A stretch of 64,000 nucleotides of DNA from assembly GCA_003695915.1 (NCBI GenBank), contig RFGF01000041.1, forward strand, positions 62,001 to 126,000, read 5' to 3'. The notes below the pieces were generated by a model. The model was not told where the DNA came from and did not search any database. It saw only the letters and a program-made list of their open reading frames with translations. Source of the stretch: Nitrospirota bacterium. Lineage in GTDB: Bacteria; Nitrospirota; Nitrospiria; Nitrospirales; UBA8639. Of this stretch, positions 24,421 through 61,827 are shown piece after piece (the stretch's first letter is position 1; each line of letters starts with the position of its first letter). Position numbers and translations under genes: made by a program.

Positions 24421-25572
24421 ATGCGAGTCACCGACCGCCAACATGTCGATGCCCTGCTTGCTGCGATTCAGGGATATCGTCGGGATATCTTCGATCGACA
24501 AGAGCAAATTGCATCGGGGAAACGGGTGAATCGGCCGTCCGACGATCCCGCAGCGTATCAGCGGATCGAGCAATTTCGTTACGTGCTGAAGACCGCGAAT
24601 CGTCGGCGAACGTCGGTGGAAGAGGGGCAGCGGCGACTTACGGTGTCCGATGGTGTGCTCGATTCGACGAGCAACCTGTTGCAGCGCGGCAAAGAGTTGG
24701 CGATCCAGCAGCGCAGCGATACCAATACGGCGACCGAACGCACCAACGTGGCGAAGGAAGTCCACCAGCTGTTTCAACAGGTGGTCTCGCTTGCCAATAC
24801 GGAGATGAACGGTCGATCGCTGTTCGCCGGATTTGAGACCGAGACGGATGCCTTTGCGCTGGATGCGGCCTCGGCCTCGGCCTCCTCGTCGAATACCGGG
24901 GGTGCTACGGTCAGTGCATCGGTCGCATCGGCTTCGGCCCTGCAACCGCATGTCTATGAAATCGCCTTTACCAGCTCAACGCAATTTGACATCACTGACT
25001 TAACGACTGGCCAACTCGTCTCTTCAGGAAATACCTATACATCGGGATCTCCGTTCAGCTTTAACGGACTCAGCGTCACGATCACGAATGGATCGGGACC
25101 TCCACAGACTGGAGATCGCTTCTACGTGCGATCGGAATATAGTTACCAGGGAGATGACAATTCGATAGCCGTGGAGACTGGCGATAGAGAAACCGTGGCC
25201 ACCAATGTGCCAGGCAGTCAAGTCTTTTCCGGGCCGACGGCGAATGTGTTGACCGTACTCCAAGATTTTCATCAAGCGTTGGTGACCAACGATGAGGCAG
25301 GAATCGAGACAGCCATCGGGCAATTGGATGCGGCCCTGACGCAGGTGACCAACGCCCGCACCGAGGTGGGAGCCCGGATCAAGCGACTCGATGTGGTCAG
25401 GGCGAGCCTAGATCTTCTCTCCCTCAATACGGAGTCGCTTCGATCCGATTTCGAAGATGCGGATTTTGCCAGAGTCGCCTCCGAGCTCGCTGCGCTGCAA
25501 ACGCAACTCGAGGCTTCTATGGCGACGTTGACGCGGCACTTTCAAACTTCGCTGTTGGATTTTTTACGATAA
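24421..25572 (+). CDS. flgL: FlgL hook-filament junction protein 3 (HAP3)
   Basis: The 383-residue FlgL belongs to the flagellin superfamily. The N-terminal helix has SGKRVNRPSDDPAAYQRI, the hallmark of FlgL and flagellins, and RGKELAIQQRSDTNT. The C-terminal helix includes ARIKRLDVVRASLD and the end LEASMATLTRHFQTSLLDFLR (split here as MATLTRHFQTSLLDFL). The middle (about 177-259) is a beta-rich domain of the same kind as in FlgK. It contacts the first flagellin ring. No flagellin gene is in the window. Confidence 0.94.
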   Translation: MRVTDRQHVDALLAAIQGYRRDIFDRQEQIASGKRVNRPSDDPAAYQRIEQFRYVLKTANRRRTSVEEGQRRLTVSDGVLDSTSNLLQRGKELAIQQRSDTNTATERTNVAKEVHQLFQQVVSLANTEMNGRSLFAGFETETDAFALDAASASASSSNTGGATVSASVASASALQPHVYEIAFTSSTQFDITDLTTGQLVSSGNTYTSGSPFSFNGLSVTITNGSGPPQTGDRFYVRSEYSYQGDDNSIAVETGDRETVATNVPGSQVFSGPTANVLTVLQDFHQALVTNDEAGIETAIGQLDAALTQVTNARTEVGARIKRLDVVRASLDLLSLNTESLRSDFEDADFARVASELAALQTQLEASMATLTRHFQTSLLDFLR

Positions 25573-43778: not shown

Positions 43779-44789
43779 ATGAAATCTATGCACGATGAGA
43801 GCAACACGGTTCTTGTCACCGGAGGTGCGGGATATGTCGGCGCGGCTTTAGTGCCGGCATTACTCGCCGCTGGCTACCATGTCAAAGTCCTCGATCTGTA
43901 TCTGTATGGCGAGGACGTATTCGGACCCGTTCGTCATGATCCGAGGCTTACCGAGATCAAAGGCGATATTCGCGATTGCGACCTCCTTCGCGCCATTCTT
44001 CCCGGTTGCGATGCCGTGATCCATCTTGCCTGCATTTCCAATGACCCCTGTTTCGAATTGGATCCAGAACTCGGACGATCCATCAATTATGAGTGTTTCG
44101 CAGACCTCGTGGATTTGGCAAAAGATTCCGGCGTACGCAGATTTATCTATGCGTCGTCTTCCAGCGTGTATGGGATCAAACATGAGCATCACGTGACGGA
44201 AGAGTTACCGCTCGAACCATTGACGCACTATTCCCGATACAAGGCGTTGTGTGAGGACATCTTGCTCGGCAAGCGCGGCCCGGGATTCGAAACCGTGATC
44301 GTACGCCCAGCGACAGTGTGCGGATATTCACCGCGACTCCGGCTGGACCTGACCGTGAACATTTTGACCAAGGATGCCGTCGTGAAACGAGCGATCACGA
44401 TTTTTGGCGGGGAACAAAAGCGCCCCAATATCCATATTCAGGATATGGTGCGAGTCTACGAGGAACTTCTCCGCCAACCCCGAGCGCGTGTGGACGGCGA
44501 AATCTTCAACGCAGGATATGAGAATCATACCATTAATGAACTTGCCGACATGGTCCGAGTCCGTGTGGGATCGGATGTCGTGCTGACGAAACAAGCCTCC
44601 ACGGACACACGTTCATATCATATTTCGTCCGAGAAACTCGCTCGGACCATAGGATTTCGACCTGCCCGATCGATCGAAGATGCCGTCGATGAACTGAAGA
44701 CAATCCTGAGCGAGCCGCGCATGCAGCGGTCTTTGGACGATAGTCGTTATTACAATATCCGTCGCATGAAAGAGGTCGCGCTTGTTTAA
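43779..44789 (+). CDS. NAD-dependent epimerase/dehydratase (extended SDR), paralogue of the one at 29895
   Basis: The 336-residue protein has [19 protein letters not shown], the Ser/Thr region YASSSSVYG and the catalytic YSRYKALCED. It is similar along its length to the SDR at 29895 (shared PALL, PRLRLDL/PRMRLDL and terminal DELK/LELKK regions), which points to duplication within the cluster and possibly to successive steps on related substrates. Eleven bases separate it from the fusion kinase, and its end overlaps the start of the next gene. Confidence 0.85.
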   Translation: MKSMHDESNTVLVTGGAGYVGAALVPALLAAGYHVKVLDLYLYGEDVFGPVRHDPRLTEIKGDIRDCDLLRAILPGCDAVIHLACISNDPCFELDPELGRSINYECFADLVDLAKDSGVRRFIYASSSSVYGIKHEHHVTEELPLEPLTHYSRYKALCEDILLGKRGPGFETVIVRPATVCGYSPRLRLDLTVNILTKDAVVKRAITIFGGEQKRPNIHIQDMVRVYEELLRQPRARVDGEIFNAGYENHTINELADMVRVRVGSDVVLTKQASTDTRSYHISSEKLARTIGFRPARSIEDAVDELKTILSEPRMQRSLDDSRYYNIRRMKEVALV

Positions 44790-45846
44790 CGCACCGGTAG
44801 AGCCTCTGACATCGCCGCATCATCGCGGGCTTGCGGCATTTGCTGGTTCATCGTGGCGCCTCCCGCCTTCCCGATTGCTCGACTTGTACCGTGCGATGTA
44901 TCGGATACGTCTGATCGAAGAGGAAATTGCCGCGCGCTATCCCCAGCGACAAATGCGGTGTCCCGTTCATTTGTGTATCGGGCAAGAAGCGATCCCTGTC
45001 AGTGTCAGCGCGCATCTCGGTAACCATGATTATGTGATGAGCGGGCACCGATCGCATGGTCATTATTTGGCAAAAGGCGGTGATTTGAAGCTCATGATGG
45101 CAGAACTGTACGGGAAAGCGACCGGGTGCGCCGGTGGCAAAGGGGGATCCATGCATCTCATCGACCGGTCGGTGGGCTTTTTGGGTGCCATGCCCATCGT
45201 CGGAAGCGCCATTCCCGTTGCTGTCGGCGTGGCGTTCGGCTCGATGCTGCAGCAGCGAAATCGTGTCACGGTCGTCTATTTTGGTGAAGCCGCGACCGAA
45301 GAAGGAGTCTTTCATGAAAGCGTCAATTTTGCGGTGCTAAAACGACTCCCCATCATTTTCGTTTGTGAAAACAATTTTTACTCCGTGTATTCGTCACTTT
45401 CGGTTCGCCGGCGAGAGGGACAACGACTCAGTGACCTGGTTCGAGCGTATGGAATCGCCAGCGAACATCTCGACGGCAATGACGTGCTCGAGCTCTATAC
45501 CTATGCTGGGGAGGCCGTAGACAGGGCGCGCAATGGGCACGGGCCGACTTTTTTAGAGTGCACGACCTATCGATGGCGCGAGCACTGTGGTCCGCATGAC
45601 GACGATCACCTGGGATACCGGGATGCCGAAGAAGTTCGCTATTGGAAGGACCGGTGTCCGATTCGGCGATTGGAAACGGCATTGTTCAATGATGGGATCT
45701 TGACGGAAGAGGATATTCATACCTTTCGTGCACAGGTCTTATCAGAGATCGAGTCCGCCGTGGAATTTGCCCAAAGGAGTCCCTTTCCAAGCTTCCGTCA
45801 ACTTTTTACGGATGTCTTTGCCGAGTCTGCCAGGGAGCGCACGTGA
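44782..45846 (+). CDS. ThDP-dependent dehydrogenase E1 alpha subunit (pyruvate/acetoin dehydrogenase type)
   Basis: The 354-residue protein matches E1 alpha of 2-oxoacid dehydrogenases. It has IGQEAIPVSVSAHL, SGHRSHGHYLAKGGD, GCAGGKGGSMHL and the ThDP motif YFGEAATEEGVFHESVNF ending in CENN; the usual GDG is GEA here. E1 alpha/beta decarboxylates a 2-oxoacid and passes a two-carbon unit to lipoyl E2. No E2 or E3 gene is near, so the two-carbon unit may go to another acceptor such as a keto sugar, as proposed for branched-sugar pathways (inference). Starts with TTG overlapping the previous stop. Confidence 0.87.
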   Translation: MFNAPVEPLTSPHHRGLAAFAGSSWRLPPSRLLDLYRAMYRIRLIEEEIAARYPQRQMRCPVHLCIGQEAIPVSVSAHLGNHDYVMSGHRSHGHYLAKGGDLKLMMAELYGKATGCAGGKGGSMHLIDRSVGFLGAMPIVGSAIPVAVGVAFGSMLQQRNRVTVVYFGEAATEEGVFHESVNFAVLKRLPIIFVCENNFYSVYSSLSVRRREGQRLSDLVRAYGIASEHLDGNDVLELYTYAGEAVDRARNGHGPTFLECTTYRWREHCGPHDDDHLGYRDAEEVRYWKDRCPIRRLETALFNDGILTEEDIHTFRAQVLSEIESAVEFAQRSPFPSFRQLFTDVFAESARERT

Positions 45847-46907
45847 TGACCAGACGCTTGCGGTTTGTCGAGGCAGTGAGGGAAGCCTTGGAACTCGCGT
45901 TGCTTGAAGACCACTCCGTGTATGTCATGGGACTGGGCGTGCCGGACCCCAAAGGAATTTTTGGAAGTACAGTCGGGCTGCAAGAACGATTTGGAACGCA
46001 CCGCGTCATGGATATGCCAGTGTCGGAAAACGGGATGACCGGTGTAGCCATCGGCTCCGCACTTGTCGGCATGAAACCGGTATTGACGCATCAACGCATG
46101 GATTTCGCCTTATTGGCCATTGAGCAAATAGTCAATCAAGCGGCGAATTGGCATTACATGTTTGGCGGACAACAAAGCGTTCCCGTGGTGATCCGCCTTG
46201 TTATTGGACGAGGTTGGGGACAAGGTCCCCAGCATTCGCAAAGTCTTCAGGCATGGTTCGCGCATATACCAGGATTGAAAGTTGTCATGCCGACGACGGC
46301 TTACGATGCGAAGGGATTATTGCTCGCCAGCATCGCTGATCCGAACCCGGTGTTATTTATCGAACACCGATGGCTGCACGATCTCGTCGATGACGTGCCG
46401 GCTGGGCGATATGCCATCCCCTTGGGACAAGCGAAGATGCTCCGCGAAGGGCACGATGTCACGATCGTCTCCACGTCATTCATGACCGTCGAAGCGCTGC
46501 GCGCTGCGGCCAGGCTCATGCAAGCCGGCATCTCGGCGACCGTCGTCGATGTCCGATCGCTCCGGCCACTGGACGAACAATCGATTCTCGCCGCCATTCG
46601 AAACACCGGACGGGTAGTGATCGCCGATACAGGTTGGAAATCATTTGGTGTGAGCGCCGAACTCTGCGCCATGATCGTCGAACAAAGCTGGAAAGACTTA
46701 CGCCATCCCCCTGTTCGTATTGGATTGCCAGATTGCCCCACTCCTACTAGCCATGCCCTGGCCAAATATTTTTATCCGACGGCCGACGACATCGTGCGTC
46801 ATGTCTTAAATATGTTCGATAAGGCTGACGAGATTATGGCCGACGAGGGGGAACGGGATTCGGCCCTGCTGGATGTCCCGGATCTGAGCTTTGCTGGACC
46901 GTTTTGA
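45846..46907 (+). CDS. ThDP-dependent dehydrogenase E1 beta subunit
   Basis: The 353-residue protein is E1 beta. The catalytic Glu region is MPVSENGMTGVAIGSAL, followed by MFGGQQSVPVVIR and GRGWGQGPQHSQSLQ, and the C-terminal VVDVRSLRPLDEQSI. It starts on the stop of E1 alpha (GTGATGACC; an alternative GTG at 45843), so the subunits are coupled. The protein ends with an extra tail of about 25 residues. It and E1 alpha are the third split ThDP enzyme of the cluster. Confidence 0.88.
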   Translation: MTRRLRFVEAVREALELALLEDHSVYVMGLGVPDPKGIFGSTVGLQERFGTHRVMDMPVSENGMTGVAIGSALVGMKPVLTHQRMDFALLAIEQIVNQAANWHYMFGGQQSVPVVIRLVIGRGWGQGPQHSQSLQAWFAHIPGLKVVMPTTAYDAKGLLLASIADPNPVLFIEHRWLHDLVDDVPAGRYAIPLGQAKMLREGHDVTIVSTSFMTVEALRAAARLMQAGISATVVDVRSLRPLDEQSILAAIRNTGRVVIADTGWKSFGVSAELCAMIVEQSWKDLRHPPVRIGLPDCPTPTSHALAKYFYPTADDIVRHVLNMFDKADEIMADEGERDSALLDVPDLSFAGPF

Positions 46908-50047: not shown

Positions 50048-50055
50048 GACACATT

Positions 50056-50835
50056 ATGCGGCATAACAACGATCTCAGACGAACTATTGTCGAGATGGTC
50101 TATCGAGGCCGAGATGGACATATTCCCAGTGCGTTTTCTATTTTGGACATCGTTCAAGTGCTCTACGAACGCGTACTCCGAGTCGATCCTCGATCTCCGA
50201 ATTGGCCTCATCGAGATTATTTTATTCTGAGCAAAGGGCATGGCTGCTTGGCGCTGTATGTCGTGCTGGAGCGTCTCGGGTTTCTTTCCCGAGAGGATCT
50301 CGATCGCTTTTGTCGATCTGGCGGGATTTTGGGAGAGCATCCTGATTGCACACAAGTGCCCGGAGTGGAAGCCTCAACGGGATCGTTGGGGCACGGGTTT
50401 CCATTTGCGGTGGGGATTGCGTATGGGCTTCGCCTACGCCAGATGCCCAATCGAGTGATCGTCCTGGTTGGCGATGGAGAATGCCATGAAGGGACGATTT
50501 GGGAGGCTGCGCATGTCGCGGCCAATCTAAGGCTCGGCAATCTCTGCGTGATTGTCGATTGGAACGGTTCGGCGGCCCAATTATTGCCACAGGACGATCT
50601 TCCGCTCAAATGGAACGCCTTTGGATGGTCGACACGCGTCATCGATGGCCATTCTCAAGCGGACATTGTTGCCGCGCTCCAACATGTGTCGTTTCAAGGA
50701 ATAGGCACCCCCTCTGTTCTTCTTGCAAAAACGATCAAAGGCAAAGGCGTGCCATTCTTGGAAGGGCACGGGCACTGGCATCATCGTATCCCTGATGAAC
50801 GTGAATACCAAGCAATAATGGAAGCTCTCGCATGA
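50056..50835 (+). CDS. Transketolase-like N-terminal subunit (split ThDP enzyme, pair B)
   Basis: The 259-residue protein is a second N-terminal transketolase-type subunit. It has GHIPSAFSILDIVQVL, LSKGHGCLALY, STGSLGHGFPFAVGIAYG and the ThDP motif GDGECHEGTIWEAAH ending in VDWNG. It is shorter than pair A's N-subunit and only moderately similar, so the pairs likely have different substrates. The ATG at 50056 was chosen because the family begins there. It overlaps pair B's C-subunit by four bases (ATGA), a sign of coupling. Confidence 0.9.
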   Translation: MRHNNDLRRTIVEMVYRGRDGHIPSAFSILDIVQVLYERVLRVDPRSPNWPHRDYFILSKGHGCLALYVVLERLGFLSREDLDRFCRSGGILGEHPDCTQVPGVEASTGSLGHGFPFAVGIAYGLRLRQMPNRVIVLVGDGECHEGTIWEAAHVAANLRLGNLCVIVDWNGSAAQLLPQDDLPLKWNAFGWSTRVIDGHSQADIVAALQHVSFQGIGTPSVLLAKTIKGKGVPFLEGHGHWHHRIPDEREYQAIMEALA

Positions 50836-51800
50836 CCGCGCCTTCGATTCGGGAACAGTTTGCCAAGACAATGCTTCAACTCGGGCAAGCGGATGAATCG
50901 CTGGTTGTGCTTGTCGGCGATATTAGCCATTTTCTGTTGCAGCCGTTTGCCAAACGGTGTCCCGGGCGCTACCTCAATGTGGGCATTTGTGAAGCCACCA
51001 TCGCGAGCATGGCAGCCGGAATGGCGAAATTGGGATTCCGACCGGTCATCCATACCATTGCCCCTTTTCTCGTTGAGCGGGCGTTCGAACAAATCAAATT
51101 GGATTTTGGGTATCACCGGCTCGGTGGCAATATCGTGACGGTGGGCAGTGCATTCGATTACGCCAATCTCGGCTGTACGCATCATTGTTATGGCGACTTT
51201 GCGCTGTTAAAAACGTTGCCCGGCACGCAAATCGTCTATCCCGGGAGCCCCGTAGAATTCGACGTGCTGTTTCGCCAAAGTTATCGCAATTCGTGCATGA
51301 CCTATTTTCGCGTGCCTGCTCATGGTCATGGACAGATATTTGAGGAACAAGATCTGACGTTGGGACGCGGGATTCGCCTCTGTGCAGGCACAAATTTGAC
51401 CCTTGTGACCACTGGTCCACAGCTGAACAATGCGTTGGTAGCACGATCGCTGCTCCAGAACGATGGATGGGATTCGGAGGTTGTCTATCTTCACACGATT
51501 CGTCCGCTCGATACGGAACTGGTCCTGAACAGTGCCAGAAAGACCAAAAGAGTCTTAGTGATCGAAGAACACATGCGCAGTGGAGGGCTCGGAGACGATA
51601 TATTGCGGGTTCTGAGCATGGAGACCGGGATTCAGATTGATAACTTGGGAATACCGGACGAATTCGTAAGGGGTTATGGATCCTATGAGGACCACTGTCG
51701 TGGCTTGGGACTGAGTGCAGAAGGTATCGTCAATCGAGTGAGGAGGCAATTTGGGACGCCTCGCCGGGCTCGCTCTGCGGAAAAAGTTGCATGTCTGTAA
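50832..51800 (+). CDS. Transketolase-like C-terminal subunit (split ThDP enzyme, pair B)
   Basis: The 322-residue protein has the transketolase pyrimidine domain with catalytic Glu in VGICEATIASMAAGM, IVYPGSPVEFDV and the C-terminal VVYLHTIRPLDTEL plus EEHMRSGGLGDDIL. It starts on an ATGA overlap with its N-subunit. Its family is that of transketolase or DXS-like C-subunits of unknown specificity. Its end overlaps the next methyltransferase gene by ten bases, so the whole block is one transcript. Confidence 0.9.
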   Translation: MTAPSIREQFAKTMLQLGQADESLVVLVGDISHFLLQPFAKRCPGRYLNVGICEATIASMAAGMAKLGFRPVIHTIAPFLVERAFEQIKLDFGYHRLGGNIVTVGSAFDYANLGCTHHCYGDFALLKTLPGTQIVYPGSPVEFDVLFRQSYRNSCMTYFRVPAHGHGQIFEEQDLTLGRGIRLCAGTNLTLVTTGPQLNNALVARSLLQNDGWDSEVVYLHTIRPLDTELVLNSARKTKRVLVIEEHMRSGGLGDDILRVLSMETGIQIDNLGIPDEFVRGYGSYEDHCRGLGLSAEGIVNRVRRQFGTPRRARSAEKVACL

Positions 51801-52474
51801 CGGCTAAAGAAAAACAGAATCAAGCACAACTTGATCGGTATTTTGCACAAGGGGGAGTTCAACTGGGCCCTTGGACGAGTCATCTTTGGCGGGATGACCC
51901 GAGACACCTCGGATTCCTTTTGGCCAGATATAAATTTTGCGCCAAAATGCTTTCCGGCAAACGTCGCGTCTTGGAGGTGGGATGCGGCGATGCCTTCGGC
52001 ATGAGGGTTGTACAACAAACGGTTGAGTCTATCTGCGGTATCGATCTTGAGCCGCAGGTCGTGGCGGATGCCCAACGTCGATTGGCCGTTGAACAACAAC
52101 AAGGCGTTACATTGAAAATTCACGACATGACGGAGAGCGGGCTAGAAGAGAAATTCGAGGCAGCATATTCCCTGGACGTCATCGAGCATATTCCCAAGGA
52201 ACGGGAGCATCGCTTCATGACGCATCTCTGTCAGTCGCTTATCCAACATGCGGTATGCATCATTGGAACGCCCAATATCACGGCCAGCGTCTATGCGAGC
52301 CCGTTCGCGGCCCAAGGGCACATTAATTTGAAAAGCGCGGAAACGCTTCAGACGTTGTTGGTCCCATACTTTCGACACATCTTTTTATTCTCCATGAATG
52401 ACGAGGTCGTCCATACCGGATTTTATCCCATGGCACATTATCTGTTGGCAATGGGTGTGGAACTACGTGTCTAA
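51791..52474 (+). CDS. SAM-dependent methyltransferase (class I)
   Basis: The 227-residue protein has a Rossmann methyltransferase core: VLEVGCGDAFGMRVV for SAM binding, the acidic GIDLE, and YSLDVIEHIPKE. It belongs to the Methyltransf_11/25 clan; the methyl acceptor is not known. The N-terminus is a 30-residue extension. It overlaps the transketolase C-subunit and precedes a radical SAM gene. Confidence 0.85.
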   Translation: MSVTAKEKQNQAQLDRYFAQGGVQLGPWTSHLWRDDPRHLGFLLARYKFCAKMLSGKRRVLEVGCGDAFGMRVVQQTVESICGIDLEPQVVADAQRRLAVEQQQGVTLKIHDMTESGLEEKFEAAYSLDVIEHIPKEREHRFMTHLCQSLIQHAVCIIGTPNITASVYASPFAAQGHINLKSAETLQTLLVPYFRHIFLFSMNDEVVHTGFYPMAHYLLAMGVELRV

Positions 52475-52572
52475 ACGAACCGGCGTTGTAAGAAAAGGCC
52501 TGCTGCCAGAATCAACGAAAATCAACCGAAACGATCGATCGCTTGGTCAGAAACAGCTGGAGAGCGAAATCT

Positions 52573-54261
52573 GTGGTCCGACGAATCAGTTTTGCTGATT
52601 TGACGCATACCGGTCAGTTGGTCGCCTCAAATACCTTTCCGTATGGTGTGTGCCTGGTTGCTGCGTACGCTGAACGGTATTTCGATGGCGCATTGGATAT
52701 CTTCGTCTGCAAGTATCCATCCGATTTCAGCGAATATTTGGATCAAGGCATTCCTCATATCGCGTGTTTTTCCAATTACTCATGGAATTGTTCGTTGGCC
52801 TATGCTTTCGCTCGTCGACTGAAACAGATTGCCCCTGACACCGTCGTCATTTTTGGCGGCCCCAACTATCCGCTGACGCTCGATGAGCAACGAAGATTTC
52901 TGGAGCAACATCAAGCCATCGACTTTTACATTCAATTCGAGGGAGAGCGAGCTTTGCTAGCACTCTTAAAAGAGCTGGAGAGTTGCGATTGGAATGTTCA
53001 GGTCTTCAAACAAACCCATCGCCCGATCCCCAGTGTGCATTATCTCGTTCACGGCACGCTGATTCACGGCGAGCATGCCGGCCGAATTACACAGTTGGAT
53101 GAAATCCCTTCGCCCTATTTGACGGGCCGTTGCGACAAGTTTTTTGACGGGGTGCTGATCCCCATGCTGCAAACCAATCGGGGGTGCCCATTTCGGTGTA
53201 CGTTTTGTACAGAAGGCCAAGATTACTATAACAAGGTCCATTGCTATTCTTCTCGACGGGTCATCGATGATTTGACCTATATCGCGGAACGCGCCACGGT
53301 CCCCGACCTGATCATCGTGGATTCGAACTTCGGGATGTTCAAAGAAGATGTGGCGGTTGCCCGGTATCTTTCGGAGCTTCAACACGTCTATGGATGGCCT
53401 CGCTATATTCATGTGTCTACCGGAAAAAATAACAAGGAACGTGTTCTCGAGGTCGCGGAGTTGGTGAAGGGAGCCATGAGCTTTTCGGCAACCATACAAT
53501 CTTCCGATCCGCGAGTGCTCCAGAACATCAAGCGATCCAATATCTCGATTGATCAACTGATCACGGTAGCCAAGAACGCTGGTCGAATCGGCGCCAATAG
53601 TTACTCCGAAATCATTTTGGGACTGCCCGGAGATTCGGTGTCCGCCCATCGACACTCCATTCTGTCGATGGCTGATGCGGATGTGAATGTGATCCGCATG
53701 TATCAATTGATGATGTTGCCAGGATCAGAATTAGCGCGTCCCGAGTGTCGCCAGCGTTACCGGATGAAAACCCGATTTCGCGTGATGCCGAGAAATTTCG
53801 GCTGTTATCGCTTCGCTCACGAACAGTTTGCGTGCGGCGAGATTGAAGAGATTTGCGTGGCGAATGACACATTGAGCTTTTCGGATTATGTGACGTGTCG
53901 AGAATTTAATCTCACCGTTGAATTATTTTATAACGGTGGAGTCTTCGAGGAGCTGATTCAATTCCTCAAATGGAAAAACGTAAGACCCTCACAATTTCTC
54001 GAAGCTGTGCATGAACATATTCTGACCGAAGCGTCGTCGGTCTTAACCGAAATATATACCGGCTTTCGAAGGGAAACCATCCACGCTCTGTCCTTGTCGC
54101 CAGAGGAGTTGCTGGATCAACTCGCCGATCCTCGAGCAGTCCAACAATACATTTCCGAAGAAAAAGGCAATAATGAGCTTTTTAAATATCGTGCGCTCGG
54201 ATTTTTTATCATATGGACGCACTGCACGATGCGGCGTTTTCGGTTGCTGAAGGCGTATTGA
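52573..54261 (+). CDS. B12-binding-type radical SAM protein, N-terminal part of a frameshifted gene
   Basis: The protein has an N-terminal cobalamin-type domain (about 1-150; FGGPNYPLTLDEQ) and a radical SAM domain with CPFRCTFC (Cys205, Cys209, Cys212, counted from the GTG at 52573), then DSNFGMFKED and the helical second half. It ends abnormally at WTHCTMRRF. After a T6 run at 54202-54207 the coding continues in another frame (54213-54653), which supplies the family's C-terminal region. One more T would join them into a protein of about 693 residues. Start is uncertain between TTG 52543 and GTG 52573; the upstream gene ends at 52474. Confidence 0.8.
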   Translation: MVRRISFADLTHTGQLVASNTFPYGVCLVAAYAERYFDGALDIFVCKYPSDFSEYLDQGIPHIACFSNYSWNCSLAYAFARRLKQIAPDTVVIFGGPNYPLTLDEQRRFLEQHQAIDFYIQFEGERALLALLKELESCDWNVQVFKQTHRPIPSVHYLVHGTLIHGEHAGRITQLDEIPSPYLTGRCDKFFDGVLIPMLQTNRGCPFRCTFCTEGQDYYNKVHCYSSRRVIDDLTYIAERATVPDLIIVDSNFGMFKEDVAVARYLSELQHVYGWPRYIHVSTGKNNKERVLEVAELVKGAMSFSATIQSSDPRVLQNIKRSNISIDQLITVAKNAGRIGANSYSEIILGLPGDSVSAHRHSILSMADADVNVIRMYQLMMLPGSELARPECRQRYRMKTRFRVMPRNFGCYRFAHEQFACGEIEEICVANDTLSFSDYVTCREFNLTVELFYNGGVFEELIQFLKWKNVRPSQFLEAVHEHILTEASSVLTEIYTGFRRETIHALSLSPEELLDQLADPRAVQQYISEEKGNNELFKYRALGFFIIWTHCTMRRFRLLKAY

Positions 54262-54653
54262 TGTCAGCTGCCTCTTTAACGGATTGCGATGCCGTGTATC
54301 TTCGTGAATTGAAGCAATTCAGTTTGTACAGAAAATTGTGCTTGATCGACACCGAACCCGAATATGACGCAACATTTCACTATCGATTTTTGGACTTTGC
54401 CGCTGATCGGTTTGATGGGGACCCGCATCTCTATGCGCAAGGACAGGAAACAACGTTGCATTTTCATCACACGCCGGACCAAAAGGGAATGATGGAAGGC
54501 TATCTGCGACAGTATGGAACCTCTTTGACGGGACTGGGACGAATATTGCTGCGAAGTCATGTTAAACGGTTGTATCGGACGGTATCGATAGGCAAGAGAA
54601 CGGAGCGTGTTGCCCAAACGGCTGCATCGAGGGTACCCGTGGTTGCTTCGTGA
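54213..54653 (+). CDS. C-terminal fragment of the radical SAM gene at 52573 (after frameshift)
   Basis: The 146-residue reading frame has no start signal and begins with sequence that directly continues the previous frame: KYRALGFF then YHMDALHDAAFSVAEG. It includes a later DQKGMMEGYLRQYGTSLTGL and RILLRSHVKRLYR, which look like the helical end of this radical SAM family. Hence it is most likely not an independent gene. It is listed separately because it is the annotated shape of the sequence; whether it is expressed depends on frameshifting or on a true base being missing. It ends nine bases before the next radical SAM gene. Confidence 0.72.
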   Translation: MDALHDAAFSVAEGVLMSAASLTDCDAVYLRELKQFSLYRKLCLIDTEPEYDATFHYRFLDFAADRFDGDPHLYAQGQETTLHFHHTPDQKGMMEGYLRQYGTSLTGLGRILLRSHVKRLYRTVSIGKRTERVAQTAASRVPVVAS

Positions 54654-54662
54654 GGGCTATCG

Positions 54663-56240
54663 ATGAAAACAGTGTTGATTGTAGTCCCGCCTTTGGTTCT
54701 CCAGCATGACACGGAAGAGACAAGTTTTTCTCGGCCAGATATCGAGTCCTATCGGCTCGTGACCCCTGTCGAGCCAGTCAGTGTGGCGACGGATTTGCAG
54801 CTTCGTGGATTTGCGGTGAGTTTCCTGGATCTGGGTATTTATCGACATGAACGGTTTGAAAAGCTGGCTTTCCGACTCAAAACCATTCGCCCTGATGCGG
54901 TTGTGATGGTTCAGTCCATTTTGACATTTGCCACCGCTCAAGATTGGAATGGCAAGTACGTATTTGACCTGGCCAGACAAGAGAATCCATCTGTGGTCAC
55001 GATTTTGACAGGTGGCCATGCGACGAATTATCCAGGAGAAGCGGTGAAAGCCGGCATTTGCGATTATTCGATTAGAGGGGAAGTCGATTTCGCCGTAGGA
55101 CAGCTTTTGGAAGCCCTTCGGGACGGAGGAGATCTAAGCGGTATCCCAGGCTTATCTTATCGCAGAGGCGATGAAATCTCTACTACCTCATCGTATGGTT
55201 CGGTGGACATCGCCGCCATACCCATCCCGGATTATGCCGTTTTGGATCAAGAGCATCGCGACCGTTATGCCGCTGTGCTGGAGTTTGGAAAAATTCGCTA
55301 TCCGGAAAAGAGTGCGCGGTATCGGGATATCATGACCTCTCGTGGCTGTCCTCTCCGGTGTGCCTTTTGCAGTGTGGCGCCGCTCCGTGGAGAAAAACAA
55401 CGATATCGGCGAAAGCCTATGGAGCGGGTGATTCGGGAGATCGAATCAGCTCTTGACGAGGGTGTCGAGGAAATTCATTTTTTTGACGATCTCTTTGCAG
55501 AGACGGAATCGCAAGTTTTGGATTTCACCAATGCCTTGGTCAAACACAACCTCAAATTTCATTGGTTCGTCGCACAAGGCATGCCATTGTGGCCCTTGAC
55601 GCCTACGTCGCTGGCGGCGATGAAAGAAACGGGTATGTATCGTCTGATTTGTCCGTTTGAATCGGGCAATGACCGAGTGCTCAAGCGCATCATTGGAAAA
55701 AAGTATTCGACCGTCGATCATCACCATCGCGTTGTCGAATGGGCCAGTCGTTTGGGCATCGAGCTGATTGGAATGTTTGTCGTGGGCATGCCCGGAGAAA
55801 TGCGAGCCGAAATTTTGGATACGCTGAATTTTGCCGAACATCATCCGCAGCTCGATTACTCCGTCTTTTCCATCGCGACCCCCATGGTCGGGACCAGATT
55901 GATGAAGCAGGTGATGAACCGGCAAGAAGGCTTCGATCAAGAGGCTATCAATCGGGTAATCAAACGCACCGTCGCTCTCTATCACACCGAGGAGTTTCAG
56001 CCCTATGAATTGGGTGTCATTCGAGCATTCGATTGGGATCGTATCAATTTCGGGACAGAAGAGCGCTGCCGGAAATATGCCCAAATGGTTGGGCTGACCC
56101 TTCAGCAGCTCGACGAGCTTCGGGACCATGCCAAAGAAACGTTTTTCAGCTTTTTCCCGAATTATCACGGGCCGTTTTCATTTCATGAGCTCATTCACTG
56201 CCCCCGCTTGTATCGAGAAATGGAGCCCCGCATCGCCTGA
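54663..56240 (+). CDS. B12-binding-type radical SAM protein
   Basis: The 525-residue protein has an N-terminal B12-binding-like domain (about 1-150; LTGGHATNYPGEAV, DYSIRGEVD) and a radical SAM core with CPLRCAFC (Cys229, Cys233, Cys236), FFDDLFAETES and CPFESGNDRVLKRI. It resembles proteins of the BchE/HpnP type in layout only. The substrate is unknown; a role in methylating or rearranging a sugar or lipid is possible. It is nine bases after the preceding frame and eight bases before the RmlD-like gene, so it is in the same operon. Confidence 0.85.
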   Translation: MKTVLIVVPPLVLQHDTEETSFSRPDIESYRLVTPVEPVSVATDLQLRGFAVSFLDLGIYRHERFEKLAFRLKTIRPDAVVMVQSILTFATAQDWNGKYVFDLARQENPSVVTILTGGHATNYPGEAVKAGICDYSIRGEVDFAVGQLLEALRDGGDLSGIPGLSYRRGDEISTTSSYGSVDIAAIPIPDYAVLDQEHRDRYAAVLEFGKIRYPEKSARYRDIMTSRGCPLRCAFCSVAPLRGEKQRYRRKPMERVIREIESALDEGVEEIHFFDDLFAETESQVLDFTNALVKHNLKFHWFVAQGMPLWPLTPTSLAAMKETGMYRLICPFESGNDRVLKRIIGKKYSTVDHHHRVVEWASRLGIELIGMFVVGMPGEMRAEILDTLNFAEHHPQLDYSVFSIATPMVGTRLMKQVMNRQEGFDQEAINRVIKRTVALYHTEEFQPYELGVIRAFDWDRINFGTEERCRKYAQMVGLTLQQLDELRDHAKETFFSFFPNYHGPFSFHELIHCPRLYREMEPRIA

Positions 56241-56248
56241 GGTGGGGC

Positions 56249-57109
56249 ATGATAGCGGTTATCGGTTCTCAGGGATTGCTTGGTCGACATGTCATGGCGC
56301 ATTTGGTGCGCTCCGGGTATACCGTCGTGACAAGTTCGCACCGCCCTGGCGCAGATGTCTGTATCGATTTGCGCGAGCCAGTAAAGCCATTCCCATTTCG
56401 CTTCCGTAACGTCTCATGGGCAGTGTTGTGCAGTGCGATCTCGGGTCTCGATCAGTGTGCTCGAGACGTCGCAGGTTCATATCGGTTCAATGTGGTGCAC
56501 ACCATCGAGTTCATTGAACAATTATTCCACCACCATGTTGTCCCGATTTTTTGTTCCTCAGATCTCGTCTTTGCAGGGATCTCGGGGAACTATGCGGAAC
56601 ATGATCCTCGGAATCCCAGCACGGAATATGGACGACAGAAGAAAATCGTCGAAGATTACTTGCTCGGTCAGGACCGACCCTGGATCATCTTGCGGCTCAG
56701 TAAATTGTATGCAACTACGCCGGACGATCGCTCGCCGATCGGTGACACTGTCAGACGACTCCAATATGGAGAGCGCGTCCGCTGTGCGGTTGATCAAATG
56801 ATCACTCCCACGTATGTGCAAGATGTCGCGCGCATCATTGAGTGGTGCATACGAACCAATCGGCGCGGGTGTTATCACGTTGCGGGACCGCAGTCCATGA
56901 CTCGCTATGAATTAGGATTAAAAATCGCGAAGCGGTTACAGGCCGAAGCACGCATTGAACGATGTTCGATCGCTGAGTTGAACTTGTCGGAAATACGCCC
57001 GCTCAATAATACGCTCGATACTCACAAGCTCCGGTCTGACTACGATGGATCGTTGACGACCCTTGATGAGTGTCTTTCCGAGATTCTTCAATTGCCCGTT
57101 GAACGATGA
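56249..57109 (+). CDS. dTDP-4-dehydrorhamnose reductase-like SDR (RmlD family)
   Basis: The 286-residue protein has the RmlD-type cofactor motif VIGSQGLLGRHVM, the Ser-containing FCSSDLVFAG and the catalytic YGRQKKIVEDYLL. RmlD reduces the C4 keto group of dTDP-4-keto-rhamnose; here the substrate could be any 4-keto deoxysugar of the pathway. No RmlA/RmlC partner is in the window, so a rhamnose role is doubtful. It lies between radical SAM genes and starts eight bases after one. Confidence 0.84.
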   Translation: MIAVIGSQGLLGRHVMAHLVRSGYTVVTSSHRPGADVCIDLREPVKPFPFRFRNVSWAVLCSAISGLDQCARDVAGSYRFNVVHTIEFIEQLFHHHVVPIFCSSDLVFAGISGNYAEHDPRNPSTEYGRQKKIVEDYLLGQDRPWIILRLSKLYATTPDDRSPIGDTVRRLQYGERVRCAVDQMITPTYVQDVARIIEWCIRTNRRGCYHVAGPQSMTRYELGLKIAKRLQAEARIERCSIAELNLSEIRPLNNTLDTHKLRSDYDGSLTTLDECLSEILQLPVER

Positions 57110-57194: not shown

Positions 57195-58667
57195 ATGTTC
57201 ATGACTGCAACGACATATCTAGAACAAGGCCGTCAGGCCCGGCGACACGGGAATGTCCAATTGGCGCTAGCGTGTTTTCAGCGAGCCATTGGCGAGAACC
57301 CATATCAGATTGAAGGTTATCGAGAGCTGGGTTCGACGTTAGTAGGTGTCCAGCGTTTTGCTGATGCCGTGGCTGTGTATCGGCAGGCGATTGCCCATGG
57401 GGCTACGCATCCTGATCTTTATCGATCTTTAGGATTCGCAGAATATCGCAATGGGGAGTATGCGGCCGCCGCCGCATCGTTTCGCACAGCACTGACGTTC
57501 AATCCTGACGATGTGTCGGCTGTGCAAGGCTTAGCTGAGGTCTATCGGGTTCAAGGGCGCGGTCGCGAAGCGTTGGAAACGATCGTCAATGCACTGCACC
57601 GCCAACCAGGCAATATCACCCTCTGGGAACTGTGTGCCCAATTGGGTCGCCTTCTGAAGCTGGACGATGTCGCGCGGACCGCCACGGAGCAAGTCCAACG
57701 TCTCGCCGGTAGTGCATCGGAAGCAATCGACAGCCACCGTCTCGATAACATCAATATCGAAATTACCACCTATTGCAACTTTTCCTGTGCCGGCTGTTAT
57801 CGCACCATCTTGATGAATCAAGGACAGTGGAAAAATCGGCATATGGCCGTCGAGGAATTTCGGCGGATTGTCGACGGTCTCCCGCCGACTACCGATGTCT
57901 TGCTCTATGGAGTCGGGGAACCATCTTTGCATCCTCGATTGCCTGAGCTCATTGCTATCGCAGCAAAGGAGACCAAGTTTCAAAGAGTCCTTCTGACAAG
58001 CGACATTTCTGCACGGCAAGTCGAATACTACTTGGAACTGTTCGACAAGGGCCTCGCCTCGTTGACGGTGTCCGTGGATTCATTGGATCAATATCTCGCC
58101 GCTGAATTGCGAGCGGGGACCAAGGTTCGGGAATTAGCGGAGCGGCTCCGCGTACTGGTACAAGCTCGTCCCGGCCAAATTGAGATTCGAACCGTGGTCA
58201 GCACAAAGAATATCCATGCTATTCCCGACCTGTTTTGCACCCTCGATGCTCTCGGACCGTTCACGGTTCATTTGCAACCCTACGATGATCTCGGAAACCC
58301 CGAGGGATGCATTCCGTGGGAACAGCGGGCATGGTTTGTGAACGAAATCCCAACGGTCGCCAGGCAGTTTCCCAATCTACGAGTACGTCTGGGCGAGTTT
58401 TTCCCCTCTCCCGCATTGTGCCAAAAGCCTTGGAAAGAGCCATTCGTGACGGTCGATGGCCATCTGACTCCGTGCTGCCGTATTACCAGTTCGGCGATCA
58501 TTTCATTTGGCAGCCTTCTGGAGGCTCCTTTTGGCGAAGTGTTCGCTTCGGAACAAGCCCAACAATGGCGTGCTGCCTTTTTGAAGGCTTCTCCAGCCGT
58601 TTGTCATGGGTGCCCGATGCACATCGCCCGACGTCCACCTCGCTCAGGTGAATGCGTAAGCCCATAG
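57195..58667 (+). CDS. TPR-radical SAM-SPASM fusion protein
   Basis: The 490-residue protein joins an N-terminal tetratricopeptide region (about 1-165; repeats GYRELGSTLVG, LYRSLGFAEYR, LAEVYRVQGR) to a radical SAM core with CNFSCAGC (Cys194, Cys198, Cys201). It ends in a SPASM-type cysteine-rich domain (LCQKPWKEPFVTVDGHLTP, then PCCRI and VCHGCPMH). SPASM enzymes usually modify peptides or small substrates using extra iron-sulphur clusters. The TPR region may bind a partner, for example a protein to be glycosylated or modified (inference). Starts at 57195 or at 57201. Confidence 0.87.
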   Translation: MFMTATTYLEQGRQARRHGNVQLALACFQRAIGENPYQIEGYRELGSTLVGVQRFADAVAVYRQAIAHGATHPDLYRSLGFAEYRNGEYAAAAASFRTALTFNPDDVSAVQGLAEVYRVQGRGREALETIVNALHRQPGNITLWELCAQLGRLLKLDDVARTATEQVQRLAGSASEAIDSHRLDNINIEITTYCNFSCAGCYRTILMNQGQWKNRHMAVEEFRRIVDGLPPTTDVLLYGVGEPSLHPRLPELIAIAAKETKFQRVLLTSDISARQVEYYLELFDKGLASLTVSVDSLDQYLAAELRAGTKVRELAERLRVLVQARPGQIEIRTVVSTKNIHAIPDLFCTLDALGPFTVHLQPYDDLGNPEGCIPWEQRAWFVNEIPTVARQFPNLRVRLGEFFPSPALCQKPWKEPFVTVDGHLTPCCRITSSAIISFGSLLEAPFGEVFASEQAQQWRAAFLKASPAVCHGCPMHIARRPPRSGECVSP

Positions 58668-58698: not shown

Positions 58699-59358
58699 AT
58701 GGCTGAAGTCAACCTTCTTGATCGTTATCCGCGTGTCAAACGGCCGGTCGAAGAACGCGGCCAATGCATTACCGAGCAGCACCGCGGTGTGGCCCGTCAT
58801 TTTGGAAAGGAATATTTTGATGGCGATCGTCTGACGGGATATGGCGGTTATCGATATCATCCAAAGTTCTGGCAAGCTACGGTGAGGCGATTTGCCGAAT
58901 TCTATGATTTGGCTGAAGACTGCAGTGTCTTGGATGTCGGGTGCGCCAAAGGATTTATGCTTTACGATTTTCAAGCATTTTTGCCGCAGGCAACGTTTGC
59001 AGGTATCGATATCTCCCCATACGCCATCGCTCATAGCCCTGCATCCATCCGTCCCTTTCTGTGTGTTGGAAATGCCAAGGCCTTGCCCTTTCCTGATCGC
59101 TCCTTTGACCTCGTTATCTCGATCAATACCGTCCACAATCTCCCGATCGAGGAATGCAAACGTGCATTACAGGAAATTCAACGTGTGTCCAAACACCATG
59201 CGTTCGTCACAATGGATGCCTGGCGAAATGACCGAGAACGAGAGCAGTTGATGAAATGGAATTTGACCGCGCTGACCTATTTGCATGTTGAGGAGTGGAT
59301 TGCGTTGTTCAACGAGATCGGGTATGGCGGTGATTATTATTGGTTTCTTGTTGACTAA
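58699..59358 (+). CDS. SAM-dependent methyltransferase (class I)
   Basis: The 219-residue protein has a Methyltransf_11 core: VLDVGCAKGFMLYDF, AGIDISPYAI and the post-I motif LPFPDRSFDLVISINTVHN. N-terminal residues (about 1-55) form a charged extension. The acceptor is unknown; O-methylation of a sugar is the simplest idea in this context. A GGGAGG ribosome site precedes the ATG. Confidence 0.87.
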   Translation: MAEVNLLDRYPRVKRPVEERGQCITEQHRGVARHFGKEYFDGDRLTGYGGYRYHPKFWQATVRRFAEFYDLAEDCSVLDVGCAKGFMLYDFQAFLPQATFAGIDISPYAIAHSPASIRPFLCVGNAKALPFPDRSFDLVISINTVHNLPIEECKRALQEIQRVSKHHAFVTMDAWRNDREREQLMKWNLTALTYLHVEEWIALFNEIGYGGDYYWFLVD

Positions 59359-59433
59359 GTGAAAACCTTGCGCTGGTTCTGATCTCAAGCGAATCACCTT
59401 CCCAGCGCATACTTGGAGGGAGACAACACGCGC

Positions 59434-60471
59434 ATGGAGGTTTATGCGGCCGTTCTCGTTGAACCAAAGAGGCCATTGCGGATCGAGCGCTTGGGGCTCC
59501 CTGCCTTGAAAGCCGGTCAAGTCCTGGTAGAGATCGCCTATGGCGGTCTCTGTGGCACGCAATTGTTGGAAATTCGCGGTGCGAAAGGCCCCGACCCGTA
59601 TCTCCCGCATGTTCTTGGCCATGAGGGAGTGGGGACAGTTTTGGACGTCGGGAAACAGGTCACCAAGGTGCGCGCTGGAGATCGCGTGGTGTTGTCATGG
59701 ATACAAGGGTGTGGCATGGATGCCGAGCCCGCACAATATTCCAGTGCACTCGGTCGAGTGAATGCCGGGAAAGTCAGCACCTTCATGACGCACGCCATTG
59801 TTTCAGAAAATCGGGTTACACCAGTGGCTCAATGGGTGCCGGTCAAGGAAGCCGCGATCATGGGTTGTGCCATGTTGACGGCCATGGGCATGGTCGATCG
59901 GGCCCTGGGTGTTCGATCGGGCTCGACATTGGCGCTTTTCGGATTAGGCGGTATCGGGTTGAGTACGGCCATCATGGCGCGAGCGCGAGGGGCCATCGTG
60001 TTTGGCGTCGATGTTCGCGAGACGAAACTCCACCATGCGCAGGCATTGGGCGTGCAGCATGTTGTCAATGCTGCAAAGGAAGATCCGATCGCTCGCATTC
60101 GGGCCCTGACATCTGATCAGGGGGTGGATTATGCCATCGAGGCAGCAGGAGACAAGCAGGCCATGGAAGCAGCGCTGGGCGTGACTCGAACGAATGGTGG
60201 TGTGTGCCTACTGGCTGGCAATGTTCCACGAGGTATGACTCTACAAGTGGATCCTTACGACCTGATACGAGGAAAGCGACTGTGCGGAACATGGGGAGGC
60301 GGGGCGGAGCCTGACGCCGATCTTTCGAAACTCGTCGAGGTCTACCCCATCATATCTGAACAAATGTCACGAGTCATCACGCATGTGTTTCCCTTGCACG
60401 AGATCAATTGTGCCGTGGTATGCGCATCAGAAGGTTTGGCTGGACGAGTCTTGCTTCACACCGTTCATTAA
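59434..60471 (+). CDS. Zinc-containing alcohol dehydrogenase (MDR family)
   Basis: The 345-residue protein is an MDR dehydrogenase. Catalytic zinc ligands are present: Cys in GGLCGTQLLE, His-Glu in LGHEGVG and Cys in IMGCAMLTAMG. The NAD motif is LFGLGGIGLSTA. The four-Cys structural zinc lobe is missing: the loop reads QGCGMDAEPAQ, with only one Cys. It could oxidise a sugar or reduce an aldehyde of the pathway. The ATG at 59434 was preferred to 59413 because GGAGGGA lies about 13 bases upstream. Confidence 0.85.
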   Translation: MEVYAAVLVEPKRPLRIERLGLPALKAGQVLVEIAYGGLCGTQLLEIRGAKGPDPYLPHVLGHEGVGTVLDVGKQVTKVRAGDRVVLSWIQGCGMDAEPAQYSSALGRVNAGKVSTFMTHAIVSENRVTPVAQWVPVKEAAIMGCAMLTAMGMVDRALGVRSGSTLALFGLGGIGLSTAIMARARGAIVFGVDVRETKLHHAQALGVQHVVNAAKEDPIARIRALTSDQGVDYAIEAAGDKQAMEAALGVTRTNGGVCLLAGNVPRGMTLQVDPYDLIRGKRLCGTWGGGAEPDADLSKLVEVYPIISEQMSRVITHVFPLHEINCAVVCASEGLAGRVLLHTVH

Positions 60472-60486
60472 CGGATTGAAAAAGGA

Positions 60487-61827
60487 ATGTCTGTAATGAG
60501 CAATCCCTGTCGATTTGTCTTCACCTCGTGCGTGTGGGGGAAAACCTATACCCAGTGGTTTATGCAAGTCGGATTGCCCTCTCATCTTGCGCCAGGCAAT
60601 CTCGGCTTGTTCGGCCAATCGCACACTCTGCAGGGGGAATACCATATTTTTACCACAACGAACGATGCTGCGGTCATCAAAATGTGCCCTGCTTTTCGGC
60701 AATTAGCGAACATGGTCCAGCCCTACATTCATCCAATTGACAATCTCATTGCTCGCTATGAAGCTGAGGCTATCAGCAAATACGACGTCATGTCGCTCTG
60801 CCATGCGCACAGCGTCCAACGGGCGGCACAAATCGGTGCCGGATTAGTCGTGCTGGCACCGGATCTGGTGCTCGCAGACGGGGGTATGCAAACCTTGCTC
60901 GATCTCGCCTCGTCAGGGAAAAAACTCGTCCTTACAGGGAGTTTGCGCGTGATCGGTGAATCCTTCATCCGGGAAATCCACCCATGCGCCGACAAGGGAC
61001 ACGATGTCTCCTTACCCCTGCATGCTCGTGAACTCGTCGAGTTGGTGTTCAAACATTGGCACCCTTTCAATCAGACGTATCTATGGAACTCCGAATTTTT
61101 TAATCGACGTTGGCCTGCATTCCTTTTTTGGTCCGTACCCAATGAAGGGCTGGTTCAACGAGGTATTCATTTGCATCCGCTGCTTTCGTTCCCGACAACC
61201 GGCCAGCAATATCGATGGAGTAAAGATCTAGGGATCGATGGACTGGACTATATGATTCGTGTGTGTCCTGATCAAGACGATCTCCATGTGATCGGTGATT
61301 CTGATCATGTGTACTATGTCAATCTTGATCCTCAGTGGAATGACGCGTTACCGCGTCACAAAGCCAGCGCTCTTGATATTGCGCGATGGGTGATTCGGCA
61401 GACGTGCGACCATCATCGATGGTCGATGACGCAGCCGATACGCCATCACATGGGAGCCTGTTCCTCGGCATGGCTGTCGGTCGAAAAAGAATCCGAAAGC
61501 GCCATCCATACCATTCTCAAATATGTCGAAGTCTTCGAACAGCATGCCGATCTCTTACAGGAGTTGGAAGGGAGGTTCGCGGAGCAGGAAGGGAAAATCC
61601 GAGAATTGATAGGTAAATGCGCGTTTCTCGTTCAGGATGGTGCGAGGCTCCGGAATCTCTTGGGTGTGGAATATTATAAGGCTGGTCGGCTGCCGGAAGC
61701 CAAAACATTCTGGGAGACCGCGCTTCGCATGGATCCGTCTTGTGTGGACGCTCAGGAAAACTTATCGGTGCTCGATCAATCGTCCAAAAGCATGGCCTCA
61801 ACGCCTCCATCGTTGAGCCATCACTGA
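60487..61827 (+). CDS. Protein of unknown function with C-terminal TPR-like repeat, possibly glycosyltransferase-related
   Basis: The 446-residue protein is not recognised with confidence. The first 290 residues have a mixed alpha/beta character, with a hydrophobic strand LVVLAPDLVLADGGM that might be a DxD-like site (PDLVLADG), and later strands such as MIRVCPDQDD and HVIGDSDHVYYVNLD. The end (about 360-435) is helical and includes a single TPR-like unit (LLGVEYYKAGRLPEAKTFW shown partly). It is the last gene before a terminator-like hairpin. A glycosyltransferase-type fold is a guess. Confidence 0.8.
   Translation: MSVMSNPCRFVFTSCVWGKTYTQWFMQVGLPSHLAPGNLGLFGQSHTLQGEYHIFTTTNDAAVIKMCPAFRQLANMVQPYIHPIDNLIARYEAEAISKYDVMSLCHAHSVQRAAQIGAGLVVLAPDLVLADGGMQTLLDLASSGKKLVLTGSLRVIGESFIREIHPCADKGHDVSLPLHARELVELVFKHWHPFNQTYLWNSEFFNRRWPAFLFWSVPNEGLVQRGIHLHPLLSFPTTGQQYRWSKDLGIDGLDYMIRVCPDQDDLHVIGDSDHVYYVNLDPQWNDALPRHKASALDIARWVIRQTCDHHRWSMTQPIRHHMGACSSAWLSVEKESESAIHTILKYVEVFEQHADLLQELEGRFAEQEGKIRELIGKCAFLVQDGARLRNLLGVEYYKAGRLPEAKTFWETALRMDPSCVDAQENLSVLDQSSKSMASTPPSLSHH

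Follow-up and report, generated by a model that had tools for sequence, protein, structure and literature searches.

The gene at 57195-58667 of the 64,000-nucleotide stretch of Nitrospirota DNA that was analysed (the window) encodes a fusion of TPR units, a radical SAM barrel and a one-cluster Twitch tail, and it stands in a flagellar glycan island. What is new is the TPR arm on a Twitch radical SAM enzyme in such an island. By analogy with known systems we tentatively propose, with somewhat less than even confidence, that the protein is an accessory tailoring enzyme of the flagellar glycosylation island that would be docked through its TPR at flagellin or at the glycosylation machinery.

Domain architecture and type of the tail

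The gene and its parts are laid out as follows.

57195..58667, + strand: TPR-radical SAM-Twitch fusion protein, ATG start, 490 aa
57207..57722, + strand: five TPR units, residues 5-176 (AlphaFold2 helices 5-17 to 157-176; Pfam TPR models)
57741..58409, + strand: radical SAM barrel, residues 183-405 (PF04055 at 188-324; C194, C198 and C201 forming CX3CX2C)
58410..58634, + strand: one-cluster Twitch tail, residues 406-480 (PF13186 at 409-474; motif test; C409-X17-C427 and C470-X2-C473)

Each Pfam domain scored above its gathering score. The N-terminal part was matched by TPR_2 (3.4e-15), TPR_14, TPR_16 and TPR_19, with the best stretches within residues 44-150, the barrel by Radical_SAM (2.2e-13, residues 188-324) and the tail by PF13186, which Pfam names SPASM (1.4e-9, residues 409-474; 38.5 bits against a gathering score of 21.5). 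Membership of the radical SAM superfamily is indicated by the CX3CX2C motif inside the PF04055 barrel, whose cysteines C194, C198 and C201 are invariant in all three orthologs. The AlphaFold2 model (pLDDT 81.0, pTM 0.59) places ten TPR helices (5-176) ahead of the barrel and the tail; the loops at the cluster cysteines are of low confidence, and the alignment that fed the model had 18 rows, with 16 radical SAM proteins from viral contigs used only as depth. The frame is neither a chance ORF nor a mis-joined one, because two orthologs of 500 aa share all three domains. No clear ribosome-binding site was seen by eye ahead of the ATG, promoter-like sites equalled the shuffle mean, terminator-like sites fell below it, and there were no Rfam matches within 28000-64000.

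The first-pass annotation had described a TPR-radical SAM-SPASM fusion. TPR, barrel and PF13186 all stand, whereas neither the three orthologs nor the 28 relatives tested contain the seven-cysteine SPASM motif, in a motif test run without a positive control. That motif, which holds two auxiliary clusters, is given in PMC6231123 as CX9-15GX4C-gap-CX2CX5CX3C-gap-C. The tail of the fusion has instead four cysteines in the pattern CX17C...CX2C, invariant in all three orthologs, each of which fits CX12GX4C...CX2C; the general one-cluster pattern CX9-15GX4C...CX2C, again tested without a positive control, was found in these three and in 25 of the 28 relatives. C372 and C428 are likewise invariant in the three orthologs, and PF13186 was matched at E 0.001 by 29 of the 31 proteins scanned. 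Because the four-cysteine pattern is present and the seven-cysteine motif is absent, the tail is to be classed from its sequence as a one-cluster Twitch of the BtrN and MoaA type, with a single predicted auxiliary cluster. That peptides are the usual substrates of SPASM enzymes is a premise that carries little weight for such a tail: according to PMC6231123 and PMC9012708 the Twitch members include BtrN, acting on an aminocyclitol, and MoaA, acting on GTP, both small-molecule enzymes, together with SkfB, acting on a peptide. Similarity networks are moreover described in PMC6231123 as poor predictors of fold or function in this radical SAM subfamily.

In the fold comparison the highest-scoring radical SAM rows were SuiB (Z 21.8), SkfB (21.7), MoaA (20.9), ChlB (20.8) and PqqE (20.5), followed by BlsE (20.3), a viperin-like protein (19.7), anSME (19.2) and DesII (18.9). 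These modelled-fold scores are not decisive between a peptide and a small-molecule substrate, because the peptide enzymes SuiB and SkfB lead yet MoaA and ChlB lie within one Z unit of them. In Foldseek it was the TPR that brought glycosyltransferases carrying such repeats (OGT, SPINDLY) to the top, and SkfB was the sole radical SAM entry among the best 50. BtrN gave no row in a PDB sequence search at E 1, nor among the best 50 rows of the fold comparison. To our knowledge, BtrN is without a TPR.

BtrN resembles the fusion in having a Twitch tail with four cysteines, which in BtrN fully ligate one cluster; it acts on an aminocyclitol (PMC6231123, PMC9012708), and its pathway leads to the small-molecule antibiotic butirosin, a setting unlike that of the fusion. 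SkfB and SuiB share with our protein the order of an N-terminal domain, a barrel and a Twitch (SkfB) or SPASM (SuiB) tail, but their N-terminal protein-binding domain is an RRE and not a TPR, they modify precursor peptides, and the SkfB cluster is ligated by CX33CXC (PMC6231123), unlike the tail of the fusion.

Of the 47 named NCBIfam radical SAM families listed, the 25 with the best scores all stayed below their curated cut-offs; the highest score belonged to TIGR04311 (76.5 of 400 bits), and TIGR04317 gave 63.3 of 380. The two families are a putative metalloenzyme maturase and a tungsten-enzyme maturase, respectively, and these far sub-threshold scores are what speaks for some other radical SAM role (such as adenosylation, epimerisation or the maturing of a partner enzyme), in which the cluster would be no oxidant and the TPR would bind that partner. 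We consider such a role quite improbable: both scores span only residues 184-353, the generic barrel, and the neighbours scanned included no recognisable metalloenzyme that would call for a maturase of this kind.

Orthologs and relatives of the fusion

The three orthologs counted are the window gene (genome G000), L130:8235-9734 in G412 and L042:13491-14990, on the minus strand, in G269. Both of the others are 500 aa long, carry TPR, PF04055 and PF13186 matches in Pfam and can be aligned along their full length with the window protein, to which they are 46% and 40% identical; pairwise identity among the three reaches 44-56% in barrel and tail but 30-35% in the TPR part. With the radical SAM part as the query, a phylum sample of 395 genomes gave one further ortholog, that of G269 (E 1.6e-104, the next match being 4.5e-20), and some match at E 1e-8 in 77 genomes. 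The sample of the window's own family had a match in 2 of 48 genomes, its own included, and thereby yielded G412. No other ortholog was found in the family of G269 (6 of 37 genomes match at E 1e-10, the remaining five at 2.2e-16 or weaker), and an order-level sample added none (2 of 235 genomes, both already known); the phylum, family and order samples overlap. The search for the same fusion in other genomes that had been recommended at first reading was thus rewarded by G269 and G412, where the gene is beside flagellar genes in both.

TPR models matched 3 of the 31 proteins scanned, a set made up of the three orthologs and 28 other relatives with a locus, the weaker matches of the 395-genome search being left out; the three are exactly the orthologs, which form one clade in the tree with support of 97/97. 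The fusion looks rare in this phylum, to which the claim applies, and the earlier impression of an uncommon layout holds there. A domain fused to the N-terminus of a radical SAM/Twitch enzyme is in itself nothing exceptional, since relatives carry an alpha/beta hydrolase or a methyltransferase in that position; the TPR version is. The hydrolase (Hydrolase_4) is found on 4 of the 31 proteins (L011, L017, L018 and L019). Three neighbourhoods of hydrolase-fused relatives were viewed (L044, L188 and L191), none of which resembles a sugar cluster, and L131:6530-8437 in G409 is a methyltransferase-radical SAM-PF13186 fusion amid ORFs that look by eye like glycosyltransferases. In a search of titles and abstract beginnings, with subscription journals mostly outside its reach, no paper on such a TPR-radical SAM fusion was found.

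Twitch proteins from glycan clusters of the same phylum (L012, L014 and L020 among others) have the same barrel and one-cluster tail as the fusion, and such relatives adjoin glycosyltransferase- or epimerase-like genes; they differ in that TPR occurs in none of the 28 scanned and in that they fall outside the TPR clade. Beside this clade in the midpoint-rooted tree (support 80/88, branch 2.18) stand L032:220-2385 and L037:1129-2388, radical SAM proteins with N-terminal repeats of the GFSGWAY type and without the one-cluster tail pattern. G000 itself has a second radical SAM protein, L040:2-1111, which is encoded on contig C103 and shares 24% identity with the radical SAM part of the fusion; by eye it is near glycosyltransferase-like and methyltransferase-like ORFs and has no TPR.

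A pattern scan of genome contigs with the single window protein found no relative, and with a two-sequence alignment it returned the G269 contig and one plain TPR protein, the patterns being so strict that, as inspection of the sequence indicates, the G412 ortholog would have been missed. The G269 ortholog is identical to a protein on contig JACRHD010000065.1. Phage records held no close relative at E 1e-6, and plasmids gave 5 records at 21-30% identity; in the two of these inspected, a 'radical SAM protein' CDS adjoins glycosyltransferase genes in one and nucleotide-sugar genes in the other. Distant radical SAM relatives on 78 viral contigs (L047-L124) are 20-27% identical, and the one-cluster tail pattern was absent, by a simple test applied where an ORF was found, from the 43 inspected.

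The flagellar sugar island with and without the gene

The first reading had set the gene next to sugar genes, which was confirmed, and in a flagellar context, which is supported and now stands on firmer ground. In G000 the island runs from about 28600 to beyond the right edge of the window, with FlgI, FlgK and FlgL-type genes on its left flank and, past the window on the right, a flagellin gene (L041:15222-16049, PF00669 match) followed by FliD (L041:16670-18061) and FliS (L041:18099-18491). It contains epimerases, a nucleotidyltransferase, a GHMP kinase, a SIS protein, an HldE-like PfkB-cytidylyltransferase, transketolase- and E1-type thiamine enzymes, methyltransferases and a DegT aminotransferase. 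We infer that the kinase, SIS and HldE-like genes are of the heptose type. Four radical SAM enzymes of the island match the B12-binding domain, one of them just under the cut-off. The features referred to below are these.

24421..25572, + strand: FlgL/flagellin-type protein, left flank of the island
44782..46907, + strand: thiamine-enzyme pair (E1_dh 44782-45846; Transket_pyr/Transketolase_C 45843-46907)
51791..52474, + strand: class I methyltransferase, whose G269 ortholog adjoins the radical SAM gene
54663..56240, + strand: radical SAM enzyme with B12-binding domain (B12 match 31.2 bits, cut-off 32.1)
56249..57109, + strand: RmlD-type reductase, 37% match in G269
58699..59358, + strand: class I methyltransferase, next gene downstream of the fusion; at E 1e-25, 23 of the 395 genomes have a homolog
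59413..60471, + strand: zinc-type alcohol dehydrogenase family protein
60487..61827, + strand: putative glycosyltransferase-like protein with C-terminal TPR, the TPR match here being below the Pfam cut-off

The protein at 54663-56240 is 60-65% identical in G269, G137 and G412, and the thiamine pair is matched in G269, G412, G137, G356, G310, G126 and G239. For the reductase, the G412 stretches gave nothing at E 1e-10, and it was the best match of no ORF in the G137 stretches. The N-terminal domain of the protein at 60487 matches no Pfam family, and its model, built from two sequences, has a pLDDT of 47; in the orthologs of this protein from G269 and G412 the TPR match exceeds the Pfam cut-off.

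Two further observations concern the chemistry of the island. A KedN5-like B12 radical SAM gene at 52543-54653 looks split into 52543-54261 and an overlapping ORF, 54213-54653, the halves matching residues 4-553 and 556-693 of the intact 707-aa protein of G137 (L159:7763-9886); the split is either a frameshift in G000 or an assembly error. A second transketolase-type pair (49849-51800) has only weak matches in the G412 stretches, 25-38%, to the first pair, and the corresponding place there holds a single-chain thiamine enzyme (TPP_enzyme N/M/C; L130:757-2520), which is present also in G137 (L159:2909-4678). It looks as if one thiamine carboligase was replaced by another, a swap that hints at a branched-chain sugar.

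The fusion gene is beside flagellar genes in all three genomes that carry it. In G000 and G412 it is placed between the FlgL-type and flagellin genes, and in G269 MotA and MotB are on one side of it and both flagellin-type genes and FliD on the other. G137, which has the same genus label as G412, likewise has an island between FlgL-type and flagellin genes, with an E1-type pair, epimerases, a methyltransferase, an SDR, two B12-type radical SAM enzymes, a methyltransferase of the 58699 type and an alcohol dehydrogenase; the TPR-radical SAM gene is absent from it, with no match at E 1e-8, 1e-10 or 1e-12. In the three stretches of G137 examined no ORF had the 51791 or the 60487 protein as its best window match, and distant relatives of the latter (25-30%) are found elsewhere in that genome. 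Of the 23 genomes of the 395-genome sample with the 58699-type methyltransferase, 21 are without the radical SAM gene, among them G239, G310, G356 and G126, which have the alcohol dehydrogenase and several other island genes and no flagellin match; most genomes are drafts, in which absences of a gene may be assembly gaps. Since G137 and these four genomes share parts of the pathway without the gene, it is an optional extra, so far seen only beside flagellar genes. In the same sample the gene and the 60487 protein have their close matches in the same two genomes, G000 and G269 (for the latter protein E 2.3e-73 in G269, the next best being 4.6e-29), and G412 carries both as well.

The flagellin of G137 is 88-91% identical to those of two carriers of the gene; for G412 the figure is 90.5% over 275 columns, the two islands being similar with the gene present in one and absent in the other, while the flagellins of G000 and G412 are 82% identical. 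As G137 has a similar flagellin and no gene, an island of this kind can evidently do without it. When the flagellins of the carriers G000, G412 and G269 were set against those of G137 and G302, no column was invariant in the first group and missing from the second; this is a weak comparison of five sequences, which at the level of sequence gives no preference to a residue-specific change in flagellin. This bears directly on the first-pass proposal that the enzyme modifies the flagellin polypeptide ahead of glycan attachment, which found no backing: no column tracks the gene, and the similar island of G137 lacks it. More generally, it is improbable that the fusion modifies an amino-acid residue of flagellin or of another surface protein, with the TPR in the role of a sactisynthase RRE. 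The position of SuiB and SkfB at the head of the radical SAM fold rows (Z 21.8 and 21.7), SkfB as the only radical SAM protein in the best 50 of Foldseek, and the flagellin binding reported for the TPR of FlmG in PMC7591256 are consistent with it; the lack of separating columns between the carriers and G137 and G302 in those five sequences, and the sugar enzymes that surround the gene, argue against it. Glycan tailoring is the better bet than modification of the flagellin protein.

Proposed docking through TPR and proposed role of the enzyme

Among the ORFs scanned, TPR is fused to Pfam glycosyltransferases in the islands of three genomes.

L041:6050-8593: TPR-glycosyltransferase, the one in G000
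L042:3330-5549, L042:6189-8426 and L043:8959-10035: TPR-glycosyltransferases, three in G269
L159:13422-15866 and L159:15873-19998: TPR-glycosyltransferases, two in G137

The G269 island also contains a match to the Maf N-terminal domain (L133:9059-10858). The first-pass view of the TPR as a protein-binding surface agrees by analogy with flagellin-binding TPRs documented in two systems. FlmG of Caulobacter has, like our protein, an N-terminal TPR joined to a flagellin-modifying enzyme, and the TPR half binds flagellins while the glycosyltransferase half alone does not, as stated in PMC7591256; its catalytic half is a GT-B glycosyltransferase, in contrast to the radical SAM half of the fusion. 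In Maf-1 the TPR confers acceptor and site specificity for flagellin, according to other work cited in PMC13317340; the TPR is C-terminal and the catalytic part a glycosyltransferase, while the fusion has an N-terminal TPR and a radical SAM part. Because TPRs recur on the glycosyltransferases of the islands and those of FlmG and Maf-1 recognise flagellin, the natural reading by analogy is that the TPR would dock on flagellin or the transferase assembly. In the putative TPR groove, however, 3 of 30 positions are invariant, as against 12 of 40 in the core and 14 of 100 elsewhere (three orthologs, register set by hand), the lowest share within the TPR, even though the flagellins of G000 and G412 are as much as 82% identical; such low conservation speaks against a fixed flagellin-binding groove.

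The unconserved groove suits another possibility, that the fusion acts on a free cytoplasmic nucleotide sugar and its TPR only holds an enzyme complex together, never meeting flagellin. The genes identified nearby are mostly sugar enzymes, the dehydrogenase and B12-type radical SAM enzymes next to it likely act in this way, and TPR-less Twitch relatives are near glycosyltransferase- or epimerase-like genes in five of nine neighbourhoods viewed, a count based on visual inspection and a coarse BLAST against window proteins, with one of the five (L185) doubtful. We nevertheless find this somewhat unlikely, as the gene is only beside flagellar genes (three of three), is absent from the four genomes that share some of the pathway yet gave no match for flagellin, and as the other TPRs of these islands mark glycosyltransferases.

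We therefore return to the tailoring of flagellar glycans, which is favoured because the gene is beside flagellar genes in every genome that carries it, with sugar enzymes and glycosyltransferases as neighbours; because the four cysteines of the tail equal the number of ligands of the fully ligated Twitch cluster of BtrN; because the gene and the 60487 protein co-occur in G000, G269 and G412; and because G137 and the four genomes without a flagellin match keep parts of the island or pathway without the gene. Against it are the unconserved groove, the place of SuiB and SkfB at the top of the radical SAM fold rows, the absence of the gene from G137 and the small number of orthologs, only three.

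In the proposed tailoring reaction, the barrel would cleave S-adenosylmethionine and abstract a hydrogen from a sugar carbon, as expected from knowledge of the family, and the four-cysteine auxiliary cluster would accept the second electron in a two-electron oxidation like that of BtrN, the outcome being a dehydrogenation or a ketone for epimerisation. Docking through the TPR, either to flagellin or to those glycosyltransferases of the island that bear a TPR themselves, would allow the sugar to be edited on or near the flagellin-bound glycan, and the next genes, for a methyltransferase, an alcohol dehydrogenase and the putative TPR glycosyltransferase, may act in the same tailoring branch. That the TPR arm holds flagellin itself, and that the radical enzyme edits protein-attached sugars in the cytoplasm before export, we judge unlikely.

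The pair of G412 and G137 makes the role of the gene testable through a comparison of their flagellin glycans. If the TPR does dock on flagellin, the recognition principle known from TPR glycosyltransferases would extend to radical enzymes, and the fusion would offer a defined system for asking whether glycans are edited after their attachment.
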